From Aquirufa lenticrescens (GTDB taxonomy: Bacteria > Bacteroidota > Bacteroidia > Cytophagales > Spirosomataceae), in contig NZ_CP049834.1 in NCBI RefSeq assembly GCF_019916085.1, positions 1,162,501-1,226,500 of the forward strand: 64,000 bases of DNA, in the 5' to 3' direction. A model generated the notes under the pieces. It saw only the letters and a list, made by a program, of their open reading frames with translations. It was not told where the DNA came from and searched no databases. A program made the translations under genes and the position numbers. This document shows, piece after piece, positions 5,015 to 59,181 of this stretch (position 1 is its first letter; every line of letters starts with the position of its first letter).

Positions 5015-6379
5015 CTATTTCGTGATTTTCAATTCCACTCTTCGATTAAGTTTCATCCCATCCACCGTCTTATTAGGTGCAGCTGGCACTAGCTCTGAGA
5101 ACCAAGCTAATTTCATTCGCTTATTCTTCACACCATGCTGGATGAGGTAGTTGCGTGCCTCGAATACACGGTTCTTCGAAAGTTCGACGTTGTATTGTAC
5201 TGTTTGGCGAGAATCCGTGTGACCCGTCACTTTCAGCTTTAGACTAGGCTGAGCTTTTAATAAGGCCAACGCAATATCCAAGGTGCTTATCGACTCTGCC
5301 GTTAAGCTAAATCTATTCGTATTAAAGTAGATCACTAAGTTCTCTGGCACCCCTTGAAGAGCAACTAAACCGGCTACGTTTGGCATCAAATCATCAGCAT
5401 CGATTACACCGTCACCATCCGCATCTTTAGGCGCAGGACAGCCTTTTAGCGAGGCAATTCCGGCTAGGTTAGGACACGCATCTTCGCTGTCAATCACACC
5501 ATCGCCATCCGAATCTGCTGGGCAACCTTGGTTTGCTTTAACACCTGCAACCGTAGGGCAACGATCTTCACTGTCGATGATTCCATCGCCATCTGTGTCT
5601 GCAGGACATCCTTGATTTTCCTTCACACCTGCTACCGTTGGGCATTTGTCTTCTGCATCAATTACGCCGTCTCCATCTGTATCTAGAGGGCAACCGTTGT
5701 TCGCGCGAACGCCTTTGACCGTAGGGCATTTATCTTCTTTATCTACGATGCCATCGCCGTCGGTATCGATGGCAACTGGCTCGGTAATTTTAGCTGGTAC
5801 AGGAACCGGTTTGTTCCCCCATTCGTACACTAGACCTGCGGTATAATGTGCATAAGTTCCACGACCGTCCGTGAAGTCTACTTTGCCTAGTTGGAAGAAA
5901 GGGAAACCCACATTTACCATGGCACGACCGTAAAGAGAGCCTAAAATTTTAAAGTCAAAACCGGATCCTACGGATCCTGTTAAATCAACATCACTATAGG
6001 TCGAACGCGTTGAGTTATCTGCCACGACTTCACCACTGAAATTCGCAAAAGGTCTAAACTTTTTGTGTGTCTCGCGATCCAATAAATAATAACGAAGACC
6101 TAGGCCGGCTGAGGCCATATCCTTGGCATCACGAATCCCATAAACTAACGTTCCATACACATCGACATTCGGCTTTACTTCAGCCGCATATTGAATCCCA
6201 AAATGCGTGTAGCTTTGTACGTAGTCTCTGCGGGTTGGGTAGTTTTGGTACCACATATCAGAAACGCCACCGATTAGGGCGAAAGACTGGCGCTTAGGTG
6301 TTTTCGATTCTGTGCTATCCTGCGCAATAGCAGGCGATAGTAAACTAGTTAATATAAAAAATAGTATATATTTCTTCAT
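5015..6379 (-). CDS. OmpA-family protein with five TSP3 repeats (module A, third gene)
   Basis: 454 aa from the ATG at 6379. A longer frame to 6436 exists, but only the internal start gives a signal peptide (MKKYILFFILTSLLSPAIAQ), and it lies one base after the stop of the upstream PorP gene. Residues about 25-200 resemble an outer-membrane beta-barrel. Residues about 205-346 are five 28-residue TSP3 units of the form DTDGDGIIDSEDRCPTVAG, expected to bind calcium. Residues about 347-454 are the OmpA peptidoglycan-binding domain, with GHTDSR and LNRRVELKI holding the usual Asp and Arg ligands. It probably anchors the module A envelope complex to peptidoglycan. Transcription should end at the terminator just downstream. 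Confidence 0.9.
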   Translation of the reverse strand: MKKYILFFILTSLLSPAIAQDSTESKTPKRQSFALIGGVSDMWYQNYPTRRDYVQSYTHFGIQYAAEVKPNVDVYGTLVYGIRDAKDMASAGLGLRYYLLDRETHKKFRPFANFSGEVVADNSTRSTYSDVDLTGSVGSGFDFKILGSLYGRAMVNVGFPFFQLGKVDFTDGRGTYAHYTAGLVYEWGNKPVPVPAKITEPVAIDTDGDGIVDKEDKCPTVKGVRANNGCPLDTDGDGVIDAEDKCPTVAGVKENQGCPADTDGDGIIDSEDRCPTVAGVKANQGCPADSDGDGVIDSEDACPNLAGIASLKGCPAPKDADGDGVIDADDLMPNVAGLVALQGVPENLVIYFNTNRFSLTAESISTLDIALALLKAQPSLKLKVTGHTDSRQTVQYNVELSKNRVFEARNYLIQHGVKNKRMKLAWFSELVPAAPNKTVDGMKLNRRVELKITK

Positions 6380-6380
6380 G

Positions 6381-7292
6381 TTATTTGGCTGTTTCGGTTT
6401 TGGCCTCTTTCTTAAAAATCGACAAGCGGATCGCAATCTCGTGAGACTGCATCGTTACTTTACTTAAAGAAGAAATAGGCATTTCATAGATGTATCCCAG
6501 GTAGATTTTAGGACTCGCTTGAATTCCTAAACGGGCGCCGTAACTGTCCTTATGGCGGTAAGATAATCCTGCCTCGAAGGCATTGCCAAAACGCGACATC
6601 ACATTCACATCCCAGCTAACTGGTACATCCTTTGCGATACGCGCCATGAACGAGGGCATTAGCGTGATAAATTCTGACATACGAAGCGTAGTCCCCGCGT
6701 TCACATAATGATAGGTAACGTCTTTGTATCCTCCGTTCACATTCCCAAAATCATAACTAATCACCCGAGGCTGCGAAATCGCCACAAACGTCCCTTTACT
6801 ATTTCCTAAACGCAATCCCCAACCGGTATTGAATTTAATACCTGTCGAGCGATCTCCCTGAAAAACCGGGTCTGTTTGATCCACCACTTGAATTCCATCG
6901 TAATCAAGGCTAAGCGTCGAAGCGCCTACTCGAACACCACCAGATATCTTCCAGTTATCATTCAACTTTACTTGGTAAGCAAAATCTCCTGCAACCGTTG
7001 AAATCTTAAGTGGCCCTGCGATGTCAGACATGGCTAAAATCGCCAATCCCGTCTTAGGCTTCCACTTAAAGTTTCCTGTAAATGCCATCGTCCGAGGAGC
7101 CCCTTGAATCCCCACCCATTGCTGGCGGTTCATCGCAGTAATTTCTGCTTGATGCTCTACTTCTCCAGCAAACGCTGGCGAAGTAATTACTGGATTTAAA
7201 CGATACATTGAATACATCGTCTCAATCTGCGCTTGCACTAGAAAAGTCCCTAAAAGTAAACCTGCTAGTAGTATAAATCTTATCTTTTTCAT
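6381..7292 (-). CDS. PorP/SprF-family type IX secretion outer-membrane protein (module A, second gene)
   Basis: 303 aa with signal peptide ending VQA, followed by the family hallmark QIETMYSMYRLNPVITSPAFAG and MNRQQWVGIQGAPRT. The rest is barrel-like, ending in HEIAIRLSIFKKE. PorP/SprF proteins are outer-membrane partners of T9SS. In Flavobacterium johnsoniae, SprF is needed for surface delivery of its neighbour SprB, and type B C-terminal domains are typically encoded beside a SprF-like gene. The gene lies 2 bp after the giant and 1 bp before the OmpA gene, so the three are almost certainly co-transcribed. Inferred job: dedicated export or anchoring partner for the 2309-aa giant. The paralogues in modules B and C share the same N-terminal signature. 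Confidence 0.92.
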   Translation of the reverse strand: MKKIRFILLAGLLLGTFLVQAQIETMYSMYRLNPVITSPAFAGEVEHQAEITAMNRQQWVGIQGAPRTMAFTGNFKWKPKTGLAILAMSDIAGPLKISTVAGDFAYQVKLNDNWKISGGVRVGASTLSLDYDGIQVVDQTDPVFQGDRSTGIKFNTGWGLRLGNSKGTFVAISQPRVISYDFGNVNGGYKDVTYHYVNAGTTLRMSEFITLMPSFMARIAKDVPVSWDVNVMSRFGNAFEAGLSYRHKDSYGARLGIQASPKIYLGYIYEMPISSLSKVTMQSHEIAIRLSIFKKEAKTETAK

Positions 7293-7294
7293 CT

Positions 7295-10200
7295 CTATTT
7301 AATCGTGCGGTCTACTGATAAATAATTACTGATTACTGGTTTTTTGCCAAAGAAGTCAAGGATGTAATAATACGTTCCATCCGGCAACAAGGTCCCTGTA
7401 AAACTATTATCATAGCTTTCCATCTCGAACACCAGCGTGCCCCATCGGTTGAAGATCGACAAGTGATTTGGAATCTTACGTAGGAATAATCCTTTAAAGA
7501 CTAATCGATCATTCTTACCATCGCCATTAGGTGAAATCCCTTGTGGTGCGAAAATCTCACATTCATCCGGATCTAATCGATTCACAATGCCATCCTTATC
7601 ACAGTCTGCGAAGTCCGCATCCTCATTAAATTCTTCATCGTAATCCAAGATGCCATCTCCATCAGAATCCACATCATATGGATCTAACTTCCCATCGCGA
7701 TCTGTATCTGGCGGCGTTAAGCCTTTGTTCGCTGAGCTAGGAATTCCTTTCTCATCGATGTTTCCATCAGCGATGCCATCCTTGTTATAATCCGAACCAC
7801 TCGCTTCGATGACATCGGAGATTTGATCTGCATCAGAATCCAAATCACGGAAGTTAGGCATTCCATCTGCATCCGTATCACATAGAATTCCGGTTCCCGT
7901 ACATACCTTATTTTCTATTGAATCTAGGATGCCATCGTTATCAGAATCCAAGTCCAAATAATCTGGCTTGCCATCCTTATCCGTATCAACCGTCGTCTCT
8001 AATTTATCAGTGATGCTATCCCCATCCGAATCCGTATCCAAACAGTTTGGAATACCGTCTCCGTCAAAGTCCTGCGTTCCTTCCACCTTATTCGTGATAC
8101 CATCTGAATCGCAATCTAAAAGCAACCAAGCAGCGCTAGGGGCTAGTGTGATGCTTCCGGCCTTAAATGAACATGCATCTGCAGCCGAAGTACCATCCGC
8201 TAATTCGGTTCCATTGGTCACACCATCACCGTCGCAATCCAATGCTTTCCAATCATCGGATACATTCGCTTTTACTTGCCGAGTTGGCTCATAAACGCAA
8301 GGATCCGTTGGGGCTAAATCTGTTCCGTTAAGCTCTCCGTCACCATCACAATCCGCTAATGGATCTTGTAAGTCGCAGGCCATAATCGTTACAAATGCAG
8401 TAGAAAATACCTCCGTATTACCGATCTTGTAGCTAACTCGGTAACCCATCGTTACTAAGCCACTCTCAAATGGAGCACGCTTGTAAGTCATCTCACCGGT
8501 TAATGGGTTGAATGTTACGGTACCTCTAGCCGTTCCTTCGTTAGGGGTAGCCTGGCGGACAATGATCGTATTTGGCCCAGGTAAGAAGTCGTCGTTCGTT
8601 AAGATATTTATCGTTACCGTACCAGAGTTCCCTACGGTCACAACATCATTGCTGGCCACTGGAGTATCCTTATTGGGATCGGTTGCGTTCGGGTTACCAT
8701 CGTTATCACAATCTAAAGCTCCCCAGTTCATGGTAGGGGTTAATGTTTTAGAGGCAGCTGTGAAAGAACAACCGCTTCTAGGATCTGTTCCGTCATCCGT
8801 CTCTTTTCCATTCGTCACTCCATCTCCATCGCAGTCCGCTGCACGCCAAATAGCGTTCGTCGTTACTGGTGTTGCACCTGCAGCGTGAACACATGGGTCT
8901 TTAGGATCTGTATCTGTTCCGTTAGGTGTACCGTCCCCGTCACAGTCTAAAGCATTCCAAGCTGTACTTGGAGTTAAGGTCTTGCTGGCAGCTACGTAAG
9001 AGCAGCCATCGTTAGGATCTGTGCCGTCATCGGTTTCTTTTCCATTCGTAACGCCGTCTCCGTCGCAGTCCGCTGCACGCCAAATCGCATTCGTCGTTAC
9101 TGGTGTGGCGCCTGCTGCGTGTACACATGGGTCTTTAGGATCCATGTCGGTCCCGTTAGGAGTGCCGTCGCCATCACAGTCTGTCGAGTTCCAGGCAGAA
9201 CTTGGTGTCAAGGTCTTGCTAGCAGCTACGTATGAGCAACCATCGTTAGGATCAGTGCCGTCATCCGTCTCTTTTCCATTCGTTACTCCATCTCCATCGC
9301 AGTCCGCAGCACGCCAAATCGCATTCGTCGTTACTGGTGTGGCGCCTGCTGCGTGTACACATGGGTCTTTAGGATCCGTGTCGGTCTTGCTAGCCGCTAC
9401 GTAGGAGCAGCCGTCGTTAGGATCTGTTCCGTCATCCGTCTCTTTTCCATTCGTTACTCCATCTCCATCGCAGTCCGCAGCACGCCAAATCGCATTCGTC
9501 GTTACTGGTGTGGCGCCTGCTGCGTGTACACATGGGTCTTTAGGATCCGTGTCGGTCCCGTTAGGAGTGCCGTCGCCATCACAGTCTGTCGAGTTCCAGG
9601 CAGAACTTGGTGTCAAGGTCTTGCTAGCCGCTACGTAGGAGCAGCCGTCGTTAGGATCTGTTCCGTCATCCGTCTCTTTTCCATTCGTTACTCCATCTCC
9701 ATCGCAGTCCGCAGCACGCCAAATCGCATTCGTCGTTACTGGTGTAGCACCTGCTGCATGAACACATGGATCTTTAGGTGCTGTATCTGTTCCGTTAGGT
9801 GTTCCGTCGCCATCACAGTCCGCCGTTGACCAAGCAGAAGTGGGCGTCAACGTTTGACTGGCTACTAGGTATGAGCAAACATCGTTAGGGTCCGTGCCAT
9901 CAATTACCTCTTGTGCATCGGTGACTCCATCACCATCTGTATCTGCTGGTGCAGCTGAAGTAACCGTTACCGTTACGGAAGTTGTACCTGAACATGATGT
10001 ATTAGATGTGCCAGTTATAGTGTAAGTCGTCGTTACAGTAGGCGATGCTGTAACTACTGCTGTATTCATTGCAGATAAACCAGTAGAAGGAGTCCAGCTG
10101 TAGGTATTCGCTCCTGAGGCTGTCAATGAAACGCTTGACCCCGAAGTAATCGATGGCGCTGATGGTGAGACCGAAATAACTGGCAGTGCATTAACAGTCA

Positions 10201-13200
10201 TCGATGCAACAGAACTATTCACCGCACTACATGACCCTAAAGTAATTACTGCACGGTAATAGGTGGTCGCCGTTAAATTAGTTGCTGTGATACTAGCTGT
10301 CGTACTCGCGATATCTGTTACCGTTCCGGAGAAGTTTGCCACTAAAGCTGATTGCCATTTCGTGATAGATCCTGTTTGGCCTGATAAAGTCAATACCGTA
10401 CTATTTGTACCAGCACAAACTGCAGCAGAACCCGCAATCGATCCACCCACACTCTCTTGAACCGTAATTAATATAGCCGATGTATAAACCACCACATCAG
10501 TTGCTGTGCTCACTCCGCGTCTAAAATAGGTATTCACTGAAATTGCTCCAGGGGAATAGGTCGATGAAGTAGCGCCCGAAATCGTATTAAAGGTTGTACC
10601 ATCAATACTAGACTGCCATACATAAATGAACGACCCAGTTCCTCCGCTTGCATCAGTAGCTGAGCTTAAGCTAGCCGGCGTAGCGCCAACACAAATTGTT
10701 TGATCCGCTGAAATACTTCCTGCGGTTAAGGCTGCATTTACGGTTACTGACACCGTTGCAGTCGAAGAGCAAGTGGTCGTTGAGTTAGTCCCCGTAACCG
10801 TATAAGTTGTCGTTGCAGTAGGAGATGCAGTTACCACTGCGGTATTTGTTGCGGATAAGCCCGACGAAGGTGTCCAGCTGTAAGTATTCGCTCCAGAGGC
10901 AGTCAAAGACACAGAAGATCCCGTGGTAATGGTTGCCGAAGAAGGTGAAATAGAGATAACTGGTAAAGCATTGACTAAAACTTCAACTGGATGAGTAATT
11001 GCAAATGAGGATCCAATGGTCGCTTTTCGCCTAAAATGAGTCGTGGCCGTTAATGCAAAAGGATGCGTATACGATGCTGAGGTAGCCCCCGAAATATCCG
11101 TATATGTGCCAGAATGACCATTGGTTGAAATTTGCCAAATATAAGTAGGGGACCCTACTCCTGCGTCTGCTGTACTCGTTATTGTTGCTGCAGTATTTCC
11201 GTAGCATATCGATTGATCAGGGCTTAATGTGCCAGGCGTTATATCGGTAACACTTAACACAAATGGTACAACGGCTGATGTACAACCCGTCGTACTATTC
11301 TTTACCGTTAAGTTAAAATCATAACTATTTTGAGCACTAGCCGGAATCGAAATAGTTAATGGACTCGTTGTAATAGATGCATTTGAAACCGCGACAAAAT
11401 TCGCCATGGCTGTAGTCCCCGCAGTTAATGAGTATTGATCTGCACCTGCACTTAAATTAGCATAAGGAAGCGAAAAGCTTGTTGCAGATGTCGTCACATC
11501 TGGAATGACATTGACAGAAACCGTAGGCAAAGGATTCACAGTAACGGTTGCTACCGAACTATTTACTGCAGTACAAGATCCTAGCTTAACCACTGCGCGA
11601 TAATAAGTAGTTGATGTTAGGTTTGTTGCTGTTATACTTGCCGTCGTACTGGCAATATCTGTAACCGAAGAGAAATTAGAGGTTAGTGATGATTGCCACT
11701 TTGTGATAGATCCTATTTCGCCAGATAAAGTTAAAATAGTGCTGTTCGTTCCGGCACAAACTGCCGCAGAGCCTGAGATCGATCCGCCTACACTGCTTGT
11801 CACTGAGGCATTCCCAGTTGCTAAATTTTGTGTTATGGCATCCGTAGATGTGATAGCAATATTTCCAGATTGTCCATCAATGGCTGTAGATGCCAAACGT
11901 ACATATATTAACCTTGCACTTACGGTTCCAGAGGATGGTGCAATGCTAATAGTAGATGAATAGGTCCCCCCTGCACTCGTTGCTATTTCATATCCAGTCG
12001 GAGCTGTTAAGATTAAATTTGCCGTTAAATATTGAGCACTCACTGTAAATGTCTGGGATGCAGATGCCGTACCTAAACAAGAATTAAATGCAGTTAAAGA
12101 ACCCGATGTTGTAATGGTTGGAATAACAACAGTAACTAATTTAGAAACCGTTTTATCACACACTATATAAGTGATGGTACTTGAACCAGCATTCACACCG
12201 GTAACCACTCCGGTTGTTGGATTAACCGTCGCAATATTAGTTGCTGCAGAAGACCAAGATCCACCCGTTAATCCATTTGTATAGTTTGTCGTTAAACCTT
12301 TATTTAAAATAGATTCGCCAGAAATTTCTGGGATTAAGCCAGGGACAAAATTGGATGTGTTACCAGACATGGCAAAACCTTGTAATGTTCCATTAATATT
12401 GGCAACATTTGTTCTATTGGTGATAATATCATTAATCGAATTCGTACCATTTAGGACTCCTTGGTTAAAATTATAATAGGCAACCAAACCTGTTTCATTT
12501 CCAGCTAATTCAGTTAAATAGGAATTTTGAATTTGAGTTAAATTTCGAGCAATATTCCAAATGCGAACTTCATCCATTTTACCTTTAAAGAAACTCACTT
12601 TTGACGTAGTACCACCAACAGTATTATCGGTTGCTCCTATATATACTTTTACTGCTGAAACACTTGAAGCTACGCTTTCTGCTGTATTTACAGAATTACT
12701 CAATACACCATCTACATAGATTTTCATACTCGTGCCATCAAACACTCCAACTACATGGTGCCATTCATTAATCGGAATACTATTTGAACCTACAATACTC
12801 CAAGGAGATGCCTCTCTCGCAAAAACAGGTTTGCCGTCGCTATTAATGAATAAACGATAATTACTGTTTACACCACCGTTATTTTTTGAAATTATATCGG
12901 CTGAATTCGCATTGGTTTCTCTATTTATCCATGCTTCAAGTGTAAAACTTGTAGTACCGGTAAAAGCTAAATTAGCATTGCTTCCTACATTGTCCAGTAC
13001 CACATAATCGTTAGTACCATCAAAATGCATAGCATTATCCGTATTAGTGGTTACAGTCAATGTCTTACTTGTTGCACCGGTAGATGTGACAGAAAGTACA
13101 TCTGAAGCCACTGTTGTTGAGTTAGTAGTTAATTTAACATAAACAGTCGTAGTGGTAACCGCATTTGAAACTTGACTAATTGTTACGGAGCTTTGATAGC

Positions 13201-14224
13201 CAGTATTTTGACTTGTGGAAACCTGAACTCCAGTAGGGGCAGTAACAACAATGCCCGCTGTTAAATTAGACCCTGAAATGGTAAACGTTTGAGGACTAAC
13301 GGTACAGCCTGAACAGGTTGAAAATGTTTTTAAAGTTCCTGAAGTGGTAATTAATGGTGATGGCAAAATAGTACCTATTCCATATGCACCATCACTATTC
13401 AACACATTACTACCAGCAATGGCTCCAGTATTTAAATTAAAAGTTCTATTAGAAGCTGCGCCAGCGTTCAAAATAGGGACCCTAATTTGAATACTTGTTG
13501 CTCCTTGCGCTATTGAAACTGAACTTGAAATGTTTACCCAAGCACTCCCATTATAATACTGCATACTACTTGTGTAATCAGTATTAAGTGTAGCAGTTAC
13601 AGCCGTTAAAGATGGAGTAAATGTAGAATTTGCATTCGCTGCACTGGAAAGGCTAACCGTAAAAACTGCATAGGAATCTGTATTATTGACAGTTACATCA
13701 TTTACAGTAATTTTTGGTTGGCTATTTTGCGCTGTTAGAACAGCATCCATAGCAGCTAAAATTGGATCCGATGACGTGGAAACGTTAGTATTCGAACTAT
13801 AAGAAGTTACACCTGGTATTACTAATAAATAGGCTTCGTTTGTATTGGTATAAAAATACAACCCTACCGTTGTACTTCCATTCTTATCTTGTCTAGATAC
13901 TTGACCGGTTATTGATTGTTTAACTCCGGAAGAATTGACATAAGTTAAGACACCTGCAACATTGTTGCCTGTTAATCTAAAAGTTACATCTGCAGGATCT
14001 AAAGAGGTAAAAGTAAATCCAGAACCTGTTATAAATTGAATATTGGAAATACTACTTGTTTGCTCTGCATAAGAACTACCGGTTCCTTTATACACATCAT
14101 TAAAGAAAATTCTTGCGGCATTTGCTTTTTCTGAAGAAAAGATAAATGAAACTAGCAATAATAGAATAAAGGATGATTTATGAATAGACTTTGAAAAGCC
14201 TTTCCATTGATTGAAAATCGACAT
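7295..14224 (-). CDS. Giant T9SS type B secreted repeat protein, 2309 aa (module A, first gene)
   Basis: Signal peptide at 1-36, ending KANA. Residues about 395-590 form a LamG/concanavalin-like domain (MHFDGTNDYVVLDN, FTLEAWINRE, WHHVVGVFDG, GLVAYYNFNQG). A BIG2-like segment follows (IATVNPTTGVVTGVNAG), then repeated Ig/PKD-like modules with GSAAVCAGTNST and ANTYSWTPSSGLSA, the pair being present twice. Residues about 1420-1840 are tandem 78-aa units, each with two DCDGDG calcium loops. After a cadherin-like domain (SNDVVTVGNSGTVTINILTN) comes a second TSP3 block. The C-terminal 85 residues are the type B T9SS signal (QGISPNGDGKNDRLVF, LPDGTYYYILDF). Predicted to be exported by T9SS and displayed as a surface adhesin or fibre. 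LamG suggests glycan or protein binding. The ligand cannot be named. Confidence 0.9.
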   Translation of the reverse strand: MSIFNQWKGFSKSIHKSSFILLLLVSFIFSSEKANAARIFFNDVYKGTGSSYAEQTSSISNIQFITGSGFTFTSLDPADVTFRLTGNNVAGVLTYVNSSGVKQSITGQVSRQDKNGSTTVGLYFYTNTNEAYLLVIPGVTSYSSNTNVSTSSDPILAAMDAVLTAQNSQPKITVNDVTVNNTDSYAVFTVSLSSAANANSTFTPSLTAVTATLNTDYTSSMQYYNGSAWVNISSSVSIAQGATSIQIRVPILNAGAASNRTFNLNTGAIAGSNVLNSDGAYGIGTILPSPLITTSGTLKTFSTCSGCTVSPQTFTISGSNLTAGIVVTAPTGVQVSTSQNTGYQSSVTISQVSNAVTTTTVYVKLTTNSTTVASDVLSVTSTGATSKTLTVTTNTDNAMHFDGTNDYVVLDNVGSNANLAFTGTTSFTLEAWINRETNANSADIISKNNGGVNSNYRLFINSDGKPVFAREASPWSIVGSNSIPINEWHHVVGVFDGTSMKIYVDGVLSNSVNTAESVASSVSAVKVYIGATDNTVGGTTSKVSFFKGKMDEVRIWNIARNLTQIQNSYLTELAGNETGLVAYYNFNQGVLNGTNSINDIITNRTNVANINGTLQGFAMSGNTSNFVPGLIPEISGESILNKGLTTNYTNGLTGGSWSSAATNIATVNPTTGVVTGVNAGSSTITYIVCDKTVSKLVTVVIPTITTSGSLTAFNSCLGTASASQTFTVSAQYLTANLILTAPTGYEIATSAGGTYSSTISIAPSSGTVSARLIYVRLASTAIDGQSGNIAITSTDAITQNLATGNASVTSSVGGSISGSAAVCAGTNSTILTLSGEIGSITKWQSSLTSNFSSVTDIASTTASITATNLTSTTYYRAVVKLGSCTAVNSSVATVTVNPLPTVSVNVIPDVTTSATSFSLPYANLSAGADQYSLTAGTTAMANFVAVSNASITTSPLTISIPASAQNSYDFNLTVKNSTTGCTSAVVPFVLSVTDITPGTLSPDQSICYGNTAATITSTADAGVGSPTYIWQISTNGHSGTYTDISGATSASYTHPFALTATTHFRRKATIGSSFAITHPVEVLVNALPVISISPSSATITTGSSVSLTASGANTYSWTPSSGLSATNTAVVTASPTATTTYTVTGTNSTTTCSSTATVSVTVNAALTAGSISADQTICVGATPASLSSATDASGGTGSFIYVWQSSIDGTTFNTISGATSSTYSPGAISVNTYFRRGVSTATDVVVYTSAILITVQESVGGSIAGSAAVCAGTNSTVLTLSGQTGSITKWQSALVANFSGTVTDIASTTASITATNLTATTYYRAVITLGSCSAVNSSVASMTVNALPVISVSPSAPSITSGSSVSLTASGANTYSWTPSTGLSAMNTAVVTASPTVTTTYTITGTSNTSCSGTTSVTVTVTSAAPADTDGDGVTDAQEVIDGTDPNDVCSYLVASQTLTPTSAWSTADCDGDGTPNGTDTAPKDPCVHAAGATPVTTNAIWRAADCDGDGVTNGKETDDGTDPNDGCSYVAASKTLTPSSAWNSTDCDGDGTPNGTDTDPKDPCVHAAGATPVTTNAIWRAADCDGDGVTNGKETDDGTDPNDGCSYVAASKTDTDPKDPCVHAAGATPVTTNAIWRAADCDGDGVTNGKETDDGTDPNDGCSYVAASKTLTPSSAWNSTDCDGDGTPNGTDMDPKDPCVHAAGATPVTTNAIWRAADCDGDGVTNGKETDDGTDPNDGCSYVAASKTLTPSTAWNALDCDGDGTPNGTDTDPKDPCVHAAGATPVTTNAIWRAADCDGDGVTNGKETDDGTDPRSGCSFTAASKTLTPTMNWGALDCDNDGNPNATDPNKDTPVASNDVVTVGNSGTVTINILTNDDFLPGPNTIIVRQATPNEGTARGTVTFNPLTGEMTYKRAPFESGLVTMGYRVSYKIGNTEVFSTAFVTIMACDLQDPLADCDGDGELNGTDLAPTDPCVYEPTRQVKANVSDDWKALDCDGDGVTNGTELADGTSAADACSFKAGSITLAPSAAWLLLDCDSDGITNKVEGTQDFDGDGIPNCLDTDSDGDSITDKLETTVDTDKDGKPDYLDLDSDNDGILDSIENKVCTGTGILCDTDADGMPNFRDLDSDADQISDVIEASGSDYNKDGIADGNIDEKGIPSSANKGLTPPDTDRDGKLDPYDVDSDGDGILDYDEEFNEDADFADCDKDGIVNRLDPDECEIFAPQGISPNGDGKNDRLVFKGLFLRKIPNHLSIFNRWGTLVFEMESYDNSFTGTLLPDGTYYYILDFFGKKPVISNYLSVDRTIK
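8730..9925 (-). repeat. In-gene tandem repeat, 234-bp unit, with one 171-bp unit
   Basis: The register point corresponding to the sequence at 8793 recurs at 9027, 9261, 9432, 9666 and (degenerate) 9900. Spacings are 234, 234, 171, 234 and 234 bp. Each 234-bp unit encodes 78 aa with two DCDGDG loops. The 171-bp unit lacks exactly 63 bp (21 codons), so the frame is kept and SKT joins directly to DTDPKD. The 9261, 9432 and 9666 copies look almost identical at DNA level, which suggests recent duplication and contraction. Confidence 0.9.
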
Positions 14225-14319
14225 ATTTATAAAATTTAGAACACGGGGTTAACTCCGTTATTATAATCGTGAGACAAACGCTTAATAAACGAATGACTCA
14301 AAATTTCATTTACTCGAAT

Positions 14320-14382: not shown

Positions 14383-14450
14383 ACCGGACACCTTTACTCT
14401 TGGGAATTGAAGATTTTTTGTGGAAATTTAAATGTGTTCTAAATAAGTTT

Positions 14451-15578
14451 ATGCTTTACTACTTTGCACTACTTTCGGTATTGTTAGCTTTAATACTGTC
14501 CATTTATAATTGGAGAGTGAATAAAAACACGTTTTACATTAGCGGAATTTTAGTTATTCTCTCTGCTCACGGACTTACCCACTTTTTTACTGATCCGTCT
14601 CAAAGTGATTTTTCATTGGCCCTATTTTATGGGAACTTAACTCCGTTTTGGTTATTGCCCGGCCCATTACTTTATTTTTATTTTAGATCTGTCTTCTTTC
14701 CTGGAAGACCTAAATGGACAACAATAGACCTCTTACATTTCATTCCTTTTGCCGTTCAGCTAATCAATATTTTCCCCTATTTGATAAGTCCTTTTGACTA
14801 TAAATTACAAGTAGCACACGCCATTCACTTAGATCTAAATAACTTACAAAAAGTACGTATTTATTCGTTTTGTTCTTTTAGTGCCTCTTTATTAAGCCGA
14901 CCCATTATTATGTTAGCCTACCTAGTTTGGTGCTCCTTATTAATGCTTCGACAGAAAAGCTCATTAAGTAAATCAAAACATAATTGGCTAGTGTTCTTCC
15001 TAGGCGGTCTTCTAATACCTACTATTGCCTACCTATATATTGCATTAAAGTTGTTTAATGCGCCTATACCACGCATTTCGATAGATAATTATTCCACTTA
15101 CTTTATCTCCGGAATAGCTTACATAGCATTACCTATCATTTTAATTACGCTATTCCCTGAAGTGCTTTTTGGCATAAAACCACTAAATCTAAAACACGCT
15201 GAGGAGGGCTCGAAAGTAATTAAGGAGGACAATGACTATTATCTCGAATTAACCAAAAAAATAGATCAATATTGTCATAAAGAAAAGCCCTACCTGCAGC
15301 CATCATTTGAGATAGCTAATTTAGCTAAAGCCATGCAAGTGCCACAAAAACAAATCTCAAACGCCTGCAAAATTGCCTACAATAAAAAATTTACCGAAAT
15401 CCGTAATCACATGCGTGTAGAACATGCGAAACAATTGCTACAAAATGGGCTTACAAACAATAATACCATTGAAGCGATAGGAGCATATTCAGGATTCAAA
15501 TCAAGATCTACCTTCTATGAAGCTTTCAAAGCCGAAACAGGAATGACCCCTAGCCAATATTTGGAAAAATTAGCTTAA
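14451..15578 (+). CDS. Membrane-embedded AraC-family regulator, paralogue of the one at 3826
   Basis: 375 aa from the ATG at 14451. The frame can be extended to a TTG at 14400, but alignment with the paralogue (MLYYFALLSVLLALILSIYN against MILYISLFSIITSAIIAIYN) supports the internal ATG. It has about seven hydrophobic helices, then a cytoplasmic AraC HTH domain ending FKAETGMTPSQYLEKLA. The HTH second helix region (NTIEAIGAYSGFKSRSTFYE) matches the paralogue closely, which suggests related DNA sites. It diverges from module A across about 230 bp and heads a plus-strand operon with the gene 24 bp downstream. Likely controller of module A (inference from position only). Confidence 0.85.
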   Translation: MLYYFALLSVLLALILSIYNWRVNKNTFYISGILVILSAHGLTHFFTDPSQSDFSLALFYGNLTPFWLLPGPLLYFYFRSVFFPGRPKWTTIDLLHFIPFAVQLINIFPYLISPFDYKLQVAHAIHLDLNNLQKVRIYSFCSFSASLLSRPIIMLAYLVWCSLLMLRQKSSLSKSKHNWLVFFLGGLLIPTIAYLYIALKLFNAPIPRISIDNYSTYFISGIAYIALPIILITLFPEVLFGIKPLNLKHAEEGSKVIKEDNDYYLELTKKIDQYCHKEKPYLQPSFEIANLAKAMQVPQKQISNACKIAYNKKFTEIRNHMRVEHAKQLLQNGLTNNNTIEAIGAYSGFKSRSTFYEAFKAETGMTPSQYLEKLA

Positions 15579-15602: not shown

Positions 15603-16985
15603 ATGAAAAAATTCATCTTCTTTCTTCTACTGATTTCTGCAACTATTATTAAGGCAGACAATCTCCGCCTATCCTATCTAGGAGAAGCAAACATTTCCTA
15701 TACAAAACCATATATCTATTTAATTGAAAAAAATTATTACAAAACCATCAAGATTCCTGAATTAACAGAATCAGAGCCCATCTACTTTAAATTTTCAGAT
15801 TCCACATTTTATAAGAAATTTACCCCTTCCTCTTTCCAATTAAATATCATTAATAAGAAACTATATATAACCCAGAATTTAGGGGGAATTGTTTATGAAA
15901 TTCGTGGGAATGAATTAATTAGAATTGACCACTCTTTCGAGCATAAAATGCAAATTAATAGTCAGCAATTTATTCATGATAATCGCATTTTTCGTTTCGG
16001 GGGATATGGCTTCTGGTCTGCTCGGAATTTCTTCACTTATTTTGATATAAATTCCAAAGAATGGGAAAGCTATTCCCCCGTTCAAGGCGACAAAATTCCA
16101 CCTGGAATGTTCGATGTAAATCAGTTTAAAAACGGCGACGATATCACCTATTTTAATGGTATGGTAATCAATGCTTTTGACTACCTAAAATTTGAAAGAA
16201 ATCAGGATATCTGGCATTTTAATTTACGATCAAAAACGTGGGAAAATAATGGGAAAACGGCCCTGTTTTTTGGCAATAGCCCTCAAAATTTTCAATACGA
16301 AAATTATTATGTTGCTTTCAATGATGAACGTAGAATTGTACGCGTAAACTTCAATGATGAAACCTATGAAATATTTGAAAACGAGGCTGTTTCATCTAAA
16401 CTATCTCCTCAATTAAAACCATTTGTAGAAAAGGGTATCATCTATTATTTTGCGAACAATCATGCGAATGGCGAGATAGAATTAGTAGGCCTTCCTATTG
16501 AGAAATTTTTAGGAAAATCCATCTTAAAAGCTGCCTTTATAGAACGAAATCTTTGGGCCACATATTCTGCCTATATCATTGCAATCATTGCCCTACTTAT
16601 TTTCGCTTTGCTCATTTATTTCGGGTTGAAATTGCGCCCATCGAAGGCCACTAAAATCACAGACAAAGACGGCCTTCTCTACCTAGGAAAAGCAGCCATC
16701 AATTTCGACGAAACAGAATTAAAAGTCATTAAATATTTATTGAAAAACGATGACGTACCTAACTCAGAATTACTCGAATTAGTAGAGCAAAAAGGCGTCC
16801 ATTTTTCGCACAATATTCGGGTCAAAAATGATATTTTAAATCAGCTAAATTTAAAGCTTAAAGCGATTCTCCAGGTCGATGTGAACTTCATCATATTCAA
16901 AAAATCAGACACCGATTCTCGCCTTAAAGTGTATCGTTTAAATAAGCAATACTTCAAGGTGAGTGAGGAGTTTTTGAACACTTAA
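15603..16985 (+). CDS. Transmembrane one-component regulator: periplasmic sensor, one TM, winged-helix output
   Basis: 460 aa. Signal sequence ending IIKA. Residues about 20-310 are an exported domain with repeated aromatic short-strand patterns (YITQNLGGIVYEIRG, FRFGGYGFW, DIWHFNLRSKTWENNG) like a Kelch-type beta-propeller. A single TM helix spans about 321-344 (YIIAIIALLIFALLIYFGL), followed by basic RPSK. The cytoplasmic 116 residues resemble an OmpR/PhoB-type winged helix (FDETELKVIKYLL, VPNSELLELVEQ, IRVKNDILNQLN, RLKVYRLN). I read it as a membrane-spanning transcription regulator with a periplasmic sensor, although the fold assignments come from pattern only. It sits 24 bp after the AraC gene and 3 bp before the asparaginase-like gene. 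The protein at 33170 has the same topology but an AraC-type output. Confidence 0.65.
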   Translation: MKKFIFFLLLISATIIKADNLRLSYLGEANISYTKPYIYLIEKNYYKTIKIPELTESEPIYFKFSDSTFYKKFTPSSFQLNIINKKLYITQNLGGIVYEIRGNELIRIDHSFEHKMQINSQQFIHDNRIFRFGGYGFWSARNFFTYFDINSKEWESYSPVQGDKIPPGMFDVNQFKNGDDITYFNGMVINAFDYLKFERNQDIWHFNLRSKTWENNGKTALFFGNSPQNFQYENYYVAFNDERRIVRVNFNDETYEIFENEAVSSKLSPQLKPFVEKGIIYYFANNHANGEIELVGLPIEKFLGKSILKAAFIERNLWATYSAYIIAIIALLIFALLIYFGLKLRPSKATKITDKDGLLYLGKAAINFDETELKVIKYLLKNDDVPNSELLELVEQKGVHFSHNIRVKNDILNQLNLKLKAILQVDVNFIIFKKSDTDSRLKVYRLNKQYFKVSEEFLNT

Positions 16986-16988
16986 TGT

Positions 16989-19520: not shown

Positions 19521-20600
19521 TTAACGCCAAATCCGGACTTCCACCCGGCGATTCAGCTGTAAATCTGTTCGAGAAGCAGGTGCCTCTTCTGAAAAGGCCT
19601 CTGCTTTAAATCGCGCCGCTGCAACGCCGTGTTGTACTAAATACAAGCGCACGTTTTGGACACGTTTCAATGATAGTTTTAAATTATAATCGTCCGATTT
19701 TCGGTAATCCGTATGTCCTTTTAAGTGGATTTTCACATCGGGATATTCGGCCATTAATTCGATGATGCGATCTAATTTTTTGGCAGATTCTGGGCCTACC
19801 CAAGACTTATCCGTTTTGAAATAGATTTGGGTATTAAATAAGCTGTCCAAATCTACATCCGCTTTCGCGACAGAAGCGACAGATGCAACAGTAGCAACCG
19901 CAGTAGCTGGCGCAACTGCAGGTGCAACCGCAACGACTTCAGCCGAAGAACCACCAGCCGGAGCCGCAACCACAGGAACAGGAGCGGCAACAGCAGTCGC
20001 AGGCGCCTCAGCAACCACAGCCGGAGCAGCAGCCACGATAGCCTCAACCGCCATAGCCGGCGCCTTAACCGGCGATGGCAAACGAAACACCACACTCAGC
20101 CCCGCAAAGACATTCGATCCACTATTCGTAAACGGACTTAAAGACCCAGACGAAAAGAAAGGCAAACCTAAAGCCACCGAACCACGCAAAGAAACAGCCG
20201 AAGCCGCTTTGAAGTCAATCCCTAATCCAGCAGAACCTACAAAATCAGCATCGCGATTCGTCAGCGCATAGGAATTATCGAAAAGTAATTCGCCAGAAAA
20301 TTGCCCAAAAGGCACAAAGCGTTTGGAAAGAGGCTTCAAAAAATACCGCATACCCGCAGAAGCGGAAGCAGATCGCGCCGGAGAAGAAAGGTCAAAACCA
20401 TAAGAAACTCCGCCAAAAACCTCCGCCGTAGGCTTCAAAAAACGACCATATTGCCCCCCTAAAGAAGTATAATGCAACAACACATCTCTTCGAGTCGCAG
20501 CCTGTTGAAGCGTGCGATCTGTGCCTCCTACCAGAAACGAGAGGGAAGACTGCGCGAAAGTGCCAAAACTGATAAAAAGTAAAAGTAGAATTTGTCTCAT
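19521..20600 (-). CDS. OmpA-family protein with Ala/Val/Pro linker (module B, third gene)
   Basis: 359 aa. Signal peptide ending FGTFAQ. Residues about 20-180 are barrel-like and related to the module A and C counterparts (TRRDVLLHYTSLGGQYGR, AGMRYFL). Residues about 180-255 are a low-complexity Ala/Val/Pro linker (APAVVAEAPATAVAAPVPVV) in the place where the two paralogues carry TSP3 calcium repeats. Residues about 255-359 are the OmpA peptidoglycan-binding domain (IYFKTDKSW, HLKGHTDYRKSDDYN, LNRRVEVRIWR). The ATG overlaps the PorP stop by 4 bp (ATGA), indicating translational coupling. Probable role: periplasmic anchor of the module B complex. Confidence 0.9.
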   Translation of the reverse strand: MRQILLLLFISFGTFAQSSLSFLVGGTDRTLQQAATRRDVLLHYTSLGGQYGRFLKPTAEVFGGVSYGFDLSSPARSASASAGMRYFLKPLSKRFVPFGQFSGELLFDNSYALTNRDADFVGSAGLGIDFKAASAVSLRGSVALGLPFFSSGSLSPFTNSGSNVFAGLSVVFRLPSPVKAPAMAVEAIVAAAPAVVAEAPATAVAAPVPVVAAPAGGSSAEVVAVAPAVAPATAVATVASVASVAKADVDLDSLFNTQIYFKTDKSWVGPESAKKLDRIIELMAEYPDVKIHLKGHTDYRKSDDYNLKLSLKRVQNVRLYLVQHGVAAARFKAEAFSEEAPASRTDLQLNRRVEVRIWR

Positions 20601-21487
20601 TTTTGTTTCTCGAATAAGGATAATTTAAGCGCCAGCTCGTGGGTTTGGACCCCGATGGGATTCAACGTAGCTAAAGGAAATTCCGCCGTATATGCGACAT
20701 ACACTTTCTTAGAAAAGGGGACCCCGAGGCGCGCGCCGTAGGAGATTTTGTCGCGATAAATTACACCCACATCAATCTTTTCAGATAGATTAGCCAGCAA
20801 ATTCACATCCCAGCTAAGCGGCACAGAAGAAGCCATACGTAGCATCGCAGAGGGGGAAATACGAATCCCCGGAGCAGCCTGAATCGAAGTTCCCGCCTGC
20901 AAGTATGTGTAAGCGACATCTTTAAAGGCCCCAGATAAATTGCCAAAATCATAGGTCAGCACCCGCGGCTGAGAAACCGATATAAACGAACCATTACGGT
21001 GAGCGAAATGCAATCCCCAGCCTGTGTTTGGCTTTAATCCAGTCGATTTATTGACCTGGATATAGGGATCATTGATATCGATGGCCGTTAAACCTGCATA
21101 ATCGATGGAAACGGAGGAAACGGAAAGCCGAAGTCCTCCATTCATTTTCCAATCCGTATTTAAGCGTACGGAATACCCTAAATCGCCGGATAAACTTGTG
21201 ATGCGCAAAGGGCCGGCTTGGTCAGCAGCGAAAACGCCGGCGATGCCGATTTTAGGCTTCAGCTGGTAATTCCCGGTCAAAATAGACGTGCGTGGCGAGC
21301 CCTGCACTCCTATCCATTGCTGGCGGTTTATCGCCACGAACTCCCCTTTTGCGTCACGGGAAATAATTCCGGAATGAGCGGGAGAAGTGACCAAAGGATT
21401 GATTTGGTACATCGAATACATCGACTCGATTTGGGCGGAAGCGATGTGGCCTCCTAATAGTAAAAGCAATAGAATTATCTTTCTCAT
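20597..21487 (-). CDS. PorP/SprF-family type IX secretion outer-membrane protein (module B, second gene)
   Basis: 296 aa with signal peptide ending HIASA and the family start QIESMYSMYQINPLVTSPAHSG, then INRQQWIGVQGSPRTS and a barrel-like remainder ending HELALKLSLFEKQK. It overlaps the giant upstream and the OmpA gene downstream by 4 bp each, the tightest coupling in the window. It is expected to work with the 3832-aa giant as SprF does with SprB (known for that pair, inferred here). More diverged from the module A protein than the module C protein appears to be, judged by eye: module C shares RHKDSYG and KIYLGYIYEMPIS with module A, whereas B has RDKISYG and KVYVAYTAEFPLA. Confidence 0.92.
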   Translation of the reverse strand: MRKIILLLLLLGGHIASAQIESMYSMYQINPLVTSPAHSGIISRDAKGEFVAINRQQWIGVQGSPRTSILTGNYQLKPKIGIAGVFAADQAGPLRITSLSGDLGYSVRLNTDWKMNGGLRLSVSSVSIDYAGLTAIDINDPYIQVNKSTGLKPNTGWGLHFAHRNGSFISVSQPRVLTYDFGNLSGAFKDVAYTYLQAGTSIQAAPGIRISPSAMLRMASSVPLSWDVNLLANLSEKIDVGVIYRDKISYGARLGVPFSKKVYVAYTAEFPLATLNPIGVQTHELALKLSLFEKQK

Positions 21488-24400
21488 TTTCCGGTGCGAT
21501 CTAAATAAATAAAGTTCGTGATAGTAGGTTTAGCCCCTTTAAAGTCCACCACATAATAATAAGTGCCATCTGGCAGCTCGCCAGAGACGCCGTTGCCGCC
21601 CCAGGTGTTTTGGTAATTTTCTTGCTCAAACACGACACTACCCCAGCGATTAATAATGGTCAGATGGTTCGGCTGAAGTCTGAAGATTCCAGGAATTTTC
21701 AACACATCATTTAGCCCATCACCATTAGGAGTAATGATTTGCGGCAAGATTAAATCGCACACATCTGGATCGATGCGGTTTTCGATTCCGTCGTGATCGC
21801 AGTCTTTTAGATTGCCAAAATCCAAGTCATCCTCCACTTTGTCCAGAATACCATCCCCATCAGAATCGGTATCTTGGAAGTCTGGAATTCCGTCTTTATC
21901 CGTATCGATGTTCTTCTCATAGGTATCTAAATAGCCGTCATTATCCGCATCTAATTCGCGGTAATCTGGAATACCATCACCGTCAGAATCGAGTGGTTTC
22001 AATGGATTAGAACCCGCTTCGATTTTGTCCAAAATACCATCACCATCCGAGTCCGTATCGAGGTAATCAGGGATACCATCTTTGTCCGTATCACCCGTTG
22101 TTTCTAGTAAATCAGGGATACCATCTCCATCAGAATCCGTGTCTAAATAATCCGGGATTCCATCTTTGTCCGTGTCGATTGGATTCAATGGATCAGAACC
22201 TATTTCCACGTCGTCTAAGATGCCATCGTTATCCGCGTCGATGTCGATGATGTTAATCGTGAACACCGCGTGATCCGTTTTGCCACTTAAGTCTTTCGAT
22301 TGAATATCGAGTGTATAAACGGCCTTATCATCGAAATTAGGGCTCTTCACGAAGCGTAAAATACCCGTTACTGGATCGATGGTAAAGGATGAACCATCTA
22401 AACCTGGCAAAATAGTGAAGCTTGTTAAATCCTGATAATCCGGTAAAGTTTGAACCTTGATGACAGCTACCGAAGTAGGTTGTTTTTCGCGGTACGAAAC
22501 CGTTTTACCCGAAATAATTCGAGGGAATTCATCTACGTTTGTGATCTCTTGCGTGAAGCTCGCCAGGTCGTAATTACCATCTATATCAGTGGCACGAACC
22601 ACAATCGTAAAGCGCGCATTTCCATTCGCATCCACGAACGATTCATAATCAAATCCAGAGGCGTCTCTCACCGTGATCGCGCCAGTTAAGGAATCGATCG
22701 CCACGGCTGCGCGGATCGCGGCAGAGTTCGTAGAGTCTAGCGTGTAGTAGAGTTTTTGGCCCTCTTCATCCTTATCCACTGACGAATTCACATCATTCAC
22801 GTTGTATAAAAGCGTCGCCGCAACCGTGCCTTCCGGACGAGAAACAAGCGCCGCATCGTTAATCACCGGCTTAATAATTCCCAACCCGCCCGGGTCACTA
22901 ATGGAGTTATTCACTAAAGTATCCCTATCCCCGAAGGCCCCATCCGTAAAGGTCAACACAATACGCTCAATCGTGCTCGGGTCATTATCTAAGTCGATTA
23001 AGGTCGCCCCGTCGTCATAGGTCTTTAAGTCTTGGTCATCCTTAAAGCTCTTCCACTCTCCAGCGGTATTCTTCTTCAAATAAGTAGAACCCTTCATTCC
23101 CACTGGGAATTCTAAGACTGCACGCACCTGTAGACCCGGTCTGTTCGGATCTAAATCGCGTAATGGTAAACGCGGTGAAAGTGTATCTGCTGCGTTCGTT
23201 AATAAGCCCTCAATCGTGAACTGGTACAAGTCTGATGAGAACTGGCGATCCGTGTTCGCGATGTTAGGCGTAGGCAATAAGGCTACGTTTCTGAACTTCG
23301 CGTTCGGGTCAAGATCTAGCGAATCTAAACCACTTTTTCCACCAGGTAATGAACCAATTAACAACGATCCCACCTTAGAAGTCGCTGGTCTTACTGCACC
23401 CGGCACTCCATTTGCCCAATCGATTCCGGCTTGGTAATCCGCGTAAGAACCCAAAGGAACGTTCGTGATATTGTTTTGCTTTCTGTCAGGAATTCCGTCG
23501 CCATTTACGTCGCCTCCGTTAGGTGCCACCTCTTCCAGTTTCGAAGGAATGCCGTCGATATCAGGGTTTTCCGCAATCACAATTTTCACTTTGTAAGGTC
23601 CATTTAAGACCCCACTTTGGTCCTTAATGTAGTAGTCAAACTCTTGTTCTCCGTAGTAATTCGGATCTGGCAAGAAGTTAAATGAACCATCTGGGTTGAA
23701 GACGAATTGACCGTTTGATACGCTGGAGTTTTGGTCCAAAGTATATTCCACCGAATCATCGTCCGGATCAATTCCCGGCACGTTCGTACTCACACCCACG
23801 CCCTCAGTTAACGGAATACCCATATTTTGGCCATTAATCACGACCTGATTCAAGGTAACCGCCGCACCCGTAGGCTGGTCATTTGCCCCTATGATATTGA
23901 TCACCGCATTCGCATTCAGGTTATTATTCCCGTCGGTTACCACGTAGGCAATATTGATTTGGCCTTTTTGCGAACCATTTAAGAACTTCGACTTGCTCAT
24001 CTCGATGAACAAATTCGTTCCTGATAAATCCGTCGAAGACACCACATCCTGGAACTTCGTCACCGTCGTCGAATTGATAATGACCGGCTGATTTGTGACT
24101 ACATTTTCGATCGAATAGGTAATGACCACGTTGCTGACGGTGAGCGGGTCGCCCTCGGGGTCAGTGATGCCGGCTAATAAATCGAGATTGAAATCTGGTG
24201 AATCTTGAGAAATCGTAACCGGAGCCGTATTATCAACCGGAGTTTGATTCTTTAAGACAGAAACAGACGACCCATCTGTAGAAGCCGAAACGGTAGTTCC
24301 AGCATTTCCAGCTATGTCTGTGTAGTCAATGGCAAAACCTAAAACACCATCATTCGTACTATTGATAATGACATAACTAGCTGTCCAATTAATACCGTCT

Positions 24401-35974: not shown

Positions 35975-36014
35975 CGTTTTTTGTTTAAAATTACCGAAAA
36001 ATACAAGACAAACA

Positions 36015-37931: not shown

Positions 37932-38824
37932 TATTTCGGACGATTTAAAATAGACAGGCGAATCGCGATTTCGTGCGTCTGGTTACTCACTTTGCTTAGG
38001 CCGGAAATGGGCATTTCGTAGATGTAGCCGAGGTAAATTTTGGGGTTTGCTTGCATCCCAAAACGAAGACCATAACTATCCTTATGTCGATAGGCCAAAC
38101 CCGCATCAAATGCCTTTCCTACCCGTGCCATCAGATTCACGTCCCAGCTGAGTGGAACGTCCTGTGCGGCGCGCGCCATAAACGAGGGCGAAAACGACAA
38201 CTGATCGTTCACGCGCACGGTCGTTCCCGCATTAATATACAAATAGGTCACATCCTTGTAGGCGCCAGAAAACCCGCCAAAATCATAGCTCAACACCCGC
38301 GGCATCGACAAGCTCGCAAAGAATCCGCCCTTGTGATTAAAGCGCACGCCCCAGCCCGTGTTTCCTTTCAATCCTGAGCCTTTATTCGTCGCTAATATCG
38401 GATCATTCGGGTCCACCACTTGAATACCGTCATAATCTAAATAAACCGAAGAAACGCCCAAGCGAATCCCGCCAGCCATACTCCACTCCGGATTAAACTG
38501 CACGTGGTAGGCTAAATCCCCCGCCATCGTCGAGATGCGCAAAGGTCCCGCCTGATCTGCGAGCAATAAGAAGCCTCCGCCTATTTTGGGTTTGTATTGA
38601 AAGTTCGCCGTTAAGGCCAACGTCCGCGGCGCACCCTGAATACCTAACCATTGCTGGCGGTCCATCACCACGATTTCGCCGCGGTGCCCGTCCTCCATCG
38701 TTCCAGCGTAAGCCGGTGATGAGATAATCGGGTTAATGCGGTACATCGAATACATGGTTTCAATCTGCGCAAACGAGCGCAAACTAACCAGCAAAAACAA
38801 AATCAGTATATAACTCTTTTTCAT
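37931..38824 (-). CDS. PorP/SprF-family type IX secretion outer-membrane protein (module C, second gene)
   Basis: 297 aa, signal peptide ending RSFA, family start QIETMYSMYRINPIISSPAYAG and MDRQQWLGIQGAPRT, barrel-like remainder, end HEIAIRLSILNRPK. It is very close to the module A paralogue throughout (PRVLSYDFGGFSGAYKDVTY against PRVISYDFGNVNGGYKDVTY; shared RHKDSYG and KIYLGYIYEMPISGLSKV). It has one-base TAATG junctions at both ends, so giant, PorP and OmpA are one translationally coupled unit. Inferred partner for export or surface retention of the 6785-aa giant. Confidence 0.93.
   Translation of the reverse strand: MKKSYILILFLLVSLRSFAQIETMYSMYRINPIISSPAYAGTMEDGHRGEIVVMDRQQWLGIQGAPRTLALTANFQYKPKIGGGFLLLADQAGPLRISTMAGDLAYHVQFNPEWSMAGGIRLGVSSVYLDYDGIQVVDPNDPILATNKGSGLKGNTGWGVRFNHKGGFFASLSMPRVLSYDFGGFSGAYKDVTYLYINAGTTVRVNDQLSFSPSFMARAAQDVPLSWDVNLMARVGKAFDAGLAYRHKDSYGLRFGMQANPKIYLGYIYEMPISGLSKVSNQTHEIAIRLSILNRPK

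Positions 38825-59181: not shown

Follow-up and report, generated by a model that had tools for sequence, protein, structure and literature searches.

Three giant–PorP–OmpA operons at one locus

We analyzed a 64,000-nt stretch of the genome of the freshwater bacterium Aquirufa lenticrescens, hereafter the window, which spans positions 1162501–1226500 of the 2.5-Mb single contig. Its ORF listing contains three minus-strand operons, termed w1 (5015–14224), w2 (19521–32982) and w3 (36771–59181; window positions), each running from a giant gene through a gene for a PorP/SprF-family barrel to one for an OmpA-type protein. The genes of w1 are separated by gaps of 2 and 1 nt, those of w2 are joined by ATGA overlaps and those of w3 by TAATG overlaps. 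These coordinates and junctions bear out the shared order, strand and near-zero spacing described in an earlier note made from the sequence alone. The second and third genes are also paralogous, as claimed there: the w3 PorP is 61% and 51% identical to its w1 and w2 counterparts, respectively, and the w3 OmpA protein is 50% identical to both of its relatives.

The giants measure 2309 aa in w1 (7295–14224), 3832 aa in w2 (21484–32982) and 6785 aa in w3 (38824–59181, all minus strand). All three scored over the Pfam cut-off for the type B C-terminal domain (CTD) CHU_C (PF13585), and a PorP/SprF gene lies directly downstream of each, which confirms their earlier description as T9SS type B substrates with PorP/SprF partners. 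The CTD was located at aa 2226–2299 in w1 and aa 3745–3827 in w2. Hydrophobic N-termini were recognized by eye, that of w1 being signal-like. Further domains include a laminin-G/ConA-like lectin domain (aa 402–566, Pfam), TSP3_bac and Big_9 in w1, Big_12 repeats and Big_9 in w2, and an F5/8 type C (discoidin-like) domain (aa 268–387), cadherin-like/Big_9 repeats and TSP3 repeats in w3. Bacterial Ig-type domains are present in all three giants and, together with the lectin-like and F5/8 type C domains, suggest that these proteins are adhesins.

The second genes encode proteins of 303 aa (w1, 6381–7292), 296 aa (w2, 20597–21487) and 297 aa (w3, 37931–38824; all minus strand), each over the cut-offs of PF11751 and TIGR03519. 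The predicted w3 model (pLDDT 80.4) forms a barrel of 14 strands, the last of which stops at residue 293, four residues short of the C-terminus, and Foldseek related it to FadL- and OmpG-type barrels and to chain F of the T9SS substrate complex 8gl6. A sequence check found no cysteine anywhere in the three proteins, and none of them (w1 ends in SIFKKEAKTETAK) has a PR[YF][FL] end, a cysteine tail or a fused OmpA or SPOR domain. According to the accessible text of PMC12635249, SprF tail cysteines bond GldK and are required for movement; this C-terminal cysteine motif of SprF-type gliding carriers is missing from the window PorPs. With no cysteine and, in the w3 model, almost no periplasmic tail, they are therefore without the connection by which SprF is known to join the gliding rail. 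If anything connects them to the wall, it would be the adjoining OmpA protein.

The third gene encodes a predicted barrel–OmpA protein

The third genes, encoding putative OmpA-type wall anchors, specify 359 aa in w2 (19521–20600) and 386 aa in w3 (36771–37931; both minus strand). In w1, a TTG start at 6436 gives 473 aa, and an ATG at 6379 gives 454 aa (5015–6379, minus strand); the ATG is the more likely start because the TTG start overlaps PorP and the ATG start appears signal-peptide-like by eye. The w1 protein combines an N-terminal barrel region with TSP3 repeats and an OmpA domain, w2 has an Ala/Pro/Val-rich linker in place of TSP3, and w3 comprises eight predicted strands, a TSP3 linker and an OmpA domain of peptidoglycan-binding type. 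In Pfam, OmpA (PF00691) exceeded the cut-off in all three and TSP3 in w1 and w3, with nothing more; no TPR, PD40 propeller or CarboxypepD_reg match over cut-off was found in these proteins. The PorE model NF052230 gave 44–73 bits against a cut-off of 600 and covered only the C-terminal domain. With only OmpA and TSP3 in Pfam and NF052230 far under its cut-off, we rejected an assignment of the third gene as PorE.

Structure prediction of this gene family covered the w3 member (mean pLDDT 66.9), in which eight long strands (aa 29–185, mostly 77–91) precede a linker (about 30–50) and an OmpA fold. Foldseek matched the barrel to OprF (4rlc), NspA (1p4t) and OmpA (1bxw), and the C-terminal domain to PorE (6top), Pal, OprF and the A. 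baumannii peptidoglycan-pentapeptide complex 3td5. Across nine aligned members, the Gly, Asp, Asn and Arg of a GHTD..N..R motif are invariant in all nine, the His not. The Asp and Arg are the residues of this motif that would bind peptidoglycan. The third gene product is, by prediction, an OprF/OmpA-like eight-stranded barrel with a peptidoglycan-binding domain and a different protein from PorE. It shares the eight-stranded barrel with OmpA/OprF, and the combination of TSP3 linker and OmpA domain with the periplasmic part of Capnocytophaga gingivalis OmpA (5wtl). Unlike OmpA/OprF-type proteins, it is tied genetically to a type B giant and the PorP of that giant.

We searched for the barrel part across the family and detected it in 11 of 222 genomes; ten of these belong to the genus (10/38 genomes, 4/16 of high quality), and the eleventh, from another genus, matches marginally and in part (E 4.8e-4). 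Among the 21 barrel–OmpA members of the genus, 17 adjoin a type B gene, two do not and two lie at contig ends. Nine of the 17 belong to ordered trios, and the other eight precede the gene for a type B protein of 956 aa, with contig ends truncating two of these. The two members without a type B neighbor are tandem copies in genome G023, which lacks the 956-aa protein. This co-occurrence within one genus points to a putative dedicated partner of the giant and PorP.

Type B genes elsewhere in the genome

Whole-genome profile searches returned seven type B CTDs, seven PorP/SprF proteins and nine OmpA domains in 2.5 Mb, totals so small that the clustering of three trios is not attributable to chance. 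PorP lies directly downstream of four of the seven type B genes, namely those of the window operons and one at 629 kb. Barrel–OmpA genes accompany three of these four giant–PorP pairs, the 629-kb pair having none. A fifth type B gene (956 aa, 1141–1144 kb; TIGR04131 score 34.0, cut-off 35) has a paralogous OmpA gene directly upstream and no PorP. The sixth (927 aa, 1643–1646 kb) is divergent from a PorP/SprF gene whose product ends in the cysteine tail ACPKF (1642–1646 kb), and the seventh (937 aa, 791–794 kb) has no adjoining PorP or OmpA match. The OmpA anchor had been presented in the earlier note as a fixed addition, a view contradicted by the OmpA-less pair at 629 kb, the 1144-kb OmpA without PorP and the occurrence of the family in 10 of 38 genus genomes.

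The genome also encodes the SprA translocon and, after the core PorP, genes that we take to be gldK, L, M and N. An unlinked gene at 922 kb is PorE-like and matched in two pieces (244 and 107 bits) under the cut-off. GldJ likewise matched in pieces under the cut-off; a gliding rail is, therefore, not firmly established in this genome. At 1141297–1145392 (L024:3298-7393), the OmpA gene and the 956-aa type B protein form a pair of their own, with RCC1-type repeats and an invasin D3 domain in the latter. The pair is present in eight genomes; in G023, two tandem OmpA genes and no type B gene occupy this place.

Cassette content varies between species

The same site was placed in relatives, most of them draft assemblies, by its flanking genes, and barrel–OmpA counts per genome agree with the cassette placements. 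Genome G001 has w1 and the 1144-kb OmpA; its interval between the alcohol dehydrogenase and HipA-like genes, the site of w2 and w3 in A. lenticrescens, holds a single 372-aa gene. In G013, w3 adjoins the dehydrogenase and neither w1 nor w2 is found at the site. G029 likewise has w3 by the dehydrogenase, with one small ORF in between. In G023, w2 and a w3-like OmpA lie on different contigs, the latter near the dehydrogenase, and w2 is also present in G037. The earlier suggestion of a multi-cassette locus is upheld by this pattern, in which content differs between species as whole cassettes.

Within a cassette, the giants change faster than their PorP and OmpA. The G029 copy of w3 has a PorP 99% and an OmpA 92% identical to those of the window, while residues 1–852 of its 7784-aa giant match nothing in w3 and 4800 residues match at any identity (2506 at ≥60%; BLAST, E 1e-10). 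The G013 giant (7317 aa) matches w3 over 7097 residues at any identity and 5991 at ≥60% under the same threshold.

Phylogenies of the cassette components

The earlier note had proposed comparing separate trees of the components. We built the PorP tree from 25 sequences after dropping five duplicate copies (L031–L034 and L036) of cassettes already under G labels; L098, with a partial OmpA, was removed before all trees. The nine PorPs with an OmpA gene form one clade (100/100) apart from the 16 without, and within it w1 falls outside w2 plus w3 (97/94), with the alternatives w1+w3 (p = 0.048) and w1+w2 (p = 0.043) weakly rejected. The OmpA-domain tree also unites w2 and w3 (82/85; w1+w3, p = 0.033). 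In the OmpA barrel tree, w1 again lies outside w2+w3 (91/96); a long-branched w2 falls inside w3, and the test did not reject w1+w3 (p = 0.10). An alignment had hinted at OmpA as a w1/w3 domain mosaic, an idea that we dropped because both OmpA trees place w1 outside w2+w3. On the simplest reading of these phylogenies, OmpA would have joined the window PorP lineage once and the pair then duplicated together.

The CTD tree of the giants (29 rows, 116 columns) did not recover the trio clade and did not reject it (p = 0.18); in it, w1 groups with the 956-aa (1141-kb) type B protein (88/81). The PorP and OmpA trees broadly agree, and the CTD tree is too weak to speak for or against co-descent of the giants. 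Free shuffling of partners, named in the earlier note as the outcome that would count against its proposal, is not what the PorP and OmpA trees show.

PorP/SprF C-termini and their partners across a wider sample

For a broader view, we surveyed 60 PorP loci class-wide and 60 order-wide from the best-scoring matches listed; since only best-scoring matches were used and long-ORF loci were deliberately added, the frequencies are not representative. The loci yielded 125 PorPs, reduced to 120 by setting aside five for which the sequence downstream was too short. Among the matches listed, 25/120 have a cysteine close to the C-terminus, and an OmpA-domain partner or fusion was found in 1/25 of these as compared to 27/95 of the other PorPs (Fisher p = 0.008). 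By sample, this contrast gave p = 0.31 for the class, with four cysteine tails, and p = 0.079 for the order; the order value fell to 0.003 when gldK-linked genes were left out and five provisional SPOR calls were counted, three of them confirmed by Pfam over the cut-off. A control for kinship left three independent pairs, of which none pointed the same way, a mean of 0.6 the opposite way and 2.4 showed no difference; with relatedness taken into account, the contrast cannot be demonstrated.

A second feature was a PR[YF][FL] end on 20 survey PorPs, all of which (20/20) have a separate OmpA-domain (PorE-like) neighbor, as against 3/100 untagged ones. In a hold-out of 20 further loci, such a neighbor occurred beside 13/13 tagged and 0/7 untagged PorPs; for survey and hold-out together (loci L131–L270), a PorE-like gene lies directly downstream in 33/33 tagged and 3/107 untagged cases. 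The hold-out drew 20 of 30 class-search loci, leaving out L105 (contig start), L117 (near-duplicate) and L123–L130. Its tails were seen before the corresponding OmpA domains, partners were recognized from their OmpA domain and their length, and some genomes contributed different loci to both discovery and hold-out. An initial pattern, [STNKV]PR[YFH][FL]Y?F?$, found partners in 11/11 tagged and 2/9 untagged hold-out cases and missed two HPRYF ends; the simpler PR[YF][FL]$ was adopted. The tag changes about five times on the tree, where typically two of three independent pairs go the same way, none the opposite way and one shows no difference. Because independent pairs are too few, we treat both the tag and the cysteine rule as correlations and docking by the tag as a hypothesis.

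In the class and order samples, a PD40 propeller and OmpA occur together in each of the 23 separate OmpA-domain proteins that accompany PorPs. Six loci encode PorP::OmpA fusions (L054:9989-11605, L170:3481-5097, L233:2840-4381, L235:3041-4462, L236:3500-4921 and L243:3456-5396), their OmpA domains assigned by Pfam in all but L236, for which our own profile was used; TSP3 repeats lie between the PorP and OmpA parts in L054, L170 and L243. PorP::SPOR fusions exceeded the Pfam cut-off in L172:2198-4360, L239:3121-4473, L245:3527-4801 and L242:2636-4420, with SPOR under cut-off on the PorPs of L241 and L171. SPOR is, by prediction from sequence, a second kind of wall-binding module fused to PorP/SprF. 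A word search found neither 'SPOR' nor 'PRYF' in PMC12618676, PMC12635249 and PMC9143113, and no report of PorP fused to OmpA or SPOR appeared in the literature searched, which covers subscription papers and preprints little. In L193, L208 and L190, PorP/SprF genes are clustered in twos or threes.

Relationship to known type B systems

The general plan of a type B substrate with a PorP/SprF and an OmpA-domain protein is already known. In the accessible parts of PMC12618676, five Flavobacterium johnsoniae operons combine a PorE homolog with a type B substrate and an SprF-like shuttle; the authors propose a static anchoring to the wall. As described there, type B export requires the cognate PorP/SprF, with some crosstalk between substrates and partners, and a PorE-like gene accompanies the static Fjoh_3952 but not the moving type B proteins. 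Fjoh_3952-3951-3950 has the same order as the Aquirufa operons, namely substrate, PorP/SprF and OmpA-domain protein, and is proposed in these parts of the text to form a static wall-anchored complex; its third gene is PorE-like, unlike the barrel plus OmpA of Aquirufa. The Aquirufa PorP tails also lack the PR[YF][FL] end found beside PorE-like genes in our survey samples.

For P. gingivalis, the available portion of PMC9143113 reports that PorP-like proteins anchor type B proteins and that PorE, PorP and PG1035 were captured as a complex. Here, too, a type B protein is held by PorP and tied to peptidoglycan via an OmpA-domain protein. As far as that portion extends, P. gingivalis has one set with a lipoprotein PorE and a far smaller substrate, whereas Aquirufa has three sets, giants and a predicted integral barrel as anchor. 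The SprB/SprF pair of F. johnsoniae, used as the model in the earlier note, resembles the window operons in that a large type B adhesin adjoins its PorP/SprF shuttle. It is not the closest model: in the source texts as accessible, SprF is disulfide-bonded to the moving rail by tail cysteines, which the window PorPs lack, and SprB/SprF has no PorE-like neighbor. The idea of an unnamed multi-fibre locus stood as regards cassette content, which varies by species, but the trio itself is already published for F. johnsoniae and PorE, as the consulted parts indicate.

A proposed model of static, wall-anchored adhesin stands

We propose that each operon probably encodes a static wall-anchored type B adhesin stand with its own PorP barrel and an OmpA/OprF-like wall tie. 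The type B CTD of the giant would be handed to the PorP/SprF-like barrel encoded alongside, and this barrel would stay bound and hold the giant at the outer membrane. Beside it, the OmpA/OprF-like barrel would pin the stand to the cell wall through a flexible or TSP3 linker and the peptidoglycan-binding domain, and a pull on the fibre would be borne by the wall. So pinned, the adhesin would be static, unlike SprB on its moving gliding rail. Export, giant–PorP binding, PorP–OmpA contact, wall binding and immobility would follow the published relatives; adhesion we infer, as we do the direction of cassette gain or loss. At this locus, stands may be acquired or lost, and their tips replaced, from one species to another.

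The giants could instead be SprB-like gliding adhesins that travel on the moving rail via PorP/SprF, with the OmpA genes unrelated. In favor of this, the published SprB is likewise large, of type B and encoded next to SprF; gliding on soft agar is reported for Aquirufa species, with the exception of one strain (PMC11861422 and PMC12528234); and a GldJ-like gene is present under the cut-off. The GldK bond, however, needs SprF tail cysteines in the accessible account of PMC12635249, and because the window PorPs have none, we rejected the rail adhesin as best reading; with the ACPKF-tailed PorP/SprF by the type B gene at 1642–1646 kb offering a better rail candidate, it is quite improbable. Alternatively, PorP alone might hold the giant, and OmpA might be an ordinary envelope-stabilizing porin that merely lies downstream. 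Its fold in the w3 model is indeed the common one of OprF/OmpA, and giant–PorP pairs occur without barrel–OmpA at 629 kb and in at least 11 of 28 named loci of relatives. The association of 17 of 19 assessable barrel–OmpA members with type B genes, the OmpA starts that overlap or abut PorP stops, the broad agreement of the OmpA and PorP trees and the six PorP::OmpA fusion loci elsewhere argue against such an incidental neighbor, which we regard as rather unlikely.

Compatible with static stands is a reading of the locus as mainly a variation device, in which recombination swaps cassettes and tips so that the cell presents a different surface to phage or grazers, and the manner of anchoring matters less. 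One site does hold varied content, with w1 only in G001, w3 only in G013 and G029, and w2 in G023 and G037, the former also with a w3-like OmpA, and the first 852 residues of the G029 giant are without match despite the near-identical PorP. The differences observed are between species, however, and no invertase or integrase was recognized among the window proteins read by eye or domain-scanned; we consider this function possible and incline against it.

To our present knowledge, three things are new: the connector protein, its confinement to a single genus of the family that we searched, and the turnover of cassettes. They suggest that type B secretion, whose wall-anchoring step has so far been credited to PorE-like proteins, achieves this step here with a different protein, and that whole stands and exchangeable tips turn over at one locus. 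More tentatively, and with some leaning to the contrary, PorP/SprF might be a general type B socket whose exchangeable periplasmic connector sets the fate of the substrate: a CPxF-type cysteine tail would serve the moving rail, a PR[YF][FL] tag would dock PorE-like wall anchors, a fused OmpA or SPOR domain would form a third type and the separate OmpA/OprF-like barrel of the Aquirufa cassettes a fourth. The last PorP/SprF residues would then predict moving versus static adhesins. If this rule is true, the two could be separated by sequence across Bacteroidota, and the question of why a given type B adhesin moves or stays in place would become directly testable.

Regulators and neighboring genes

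Several putative regulatory genes border the operons. An AraC-type regulator with a hydrophobic N-terminal half (3826–4980, plus strand) lies beside w1, as it does in G001; none was found in the stretches of G013, a genome without w1. A second AraC-type gene (14400–15578, plus strand) is divergent from giant w1, and a third (59315–60472, minus strand) lies upstream of giant w3, likewise in G013 and G029. The recurrence of AraC genes by w3 in G013 and G029 and by w1 in G001 suggests that some regulators travel with their cassettes. Divergent from giant w2, a 557-aa protein (33170–34843, plus strand) without Pfam match appears by eye to combine a sensor, TM and HTH. A similar by-eye architecture of periplasmic sensor, TM and HTH was noted at 15603–16985, with weak kelch/propeller matches under cut-off.

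Between w2 and w3 lies a gene for a Fic-domain protein (34859–36028), and a HipA_C protein gene (61758–63020) marks the right border of the variable region. At the other end, window positions 3–3011 and genome positions 1147–1163 kb (L024 and L025) contain a row of secreted-looking, repeat-rich proteins with IANGGTGAS-type repeats and GIGTTTP starts. The same row occupies this place in G001, where it is conserved less than its flanks.
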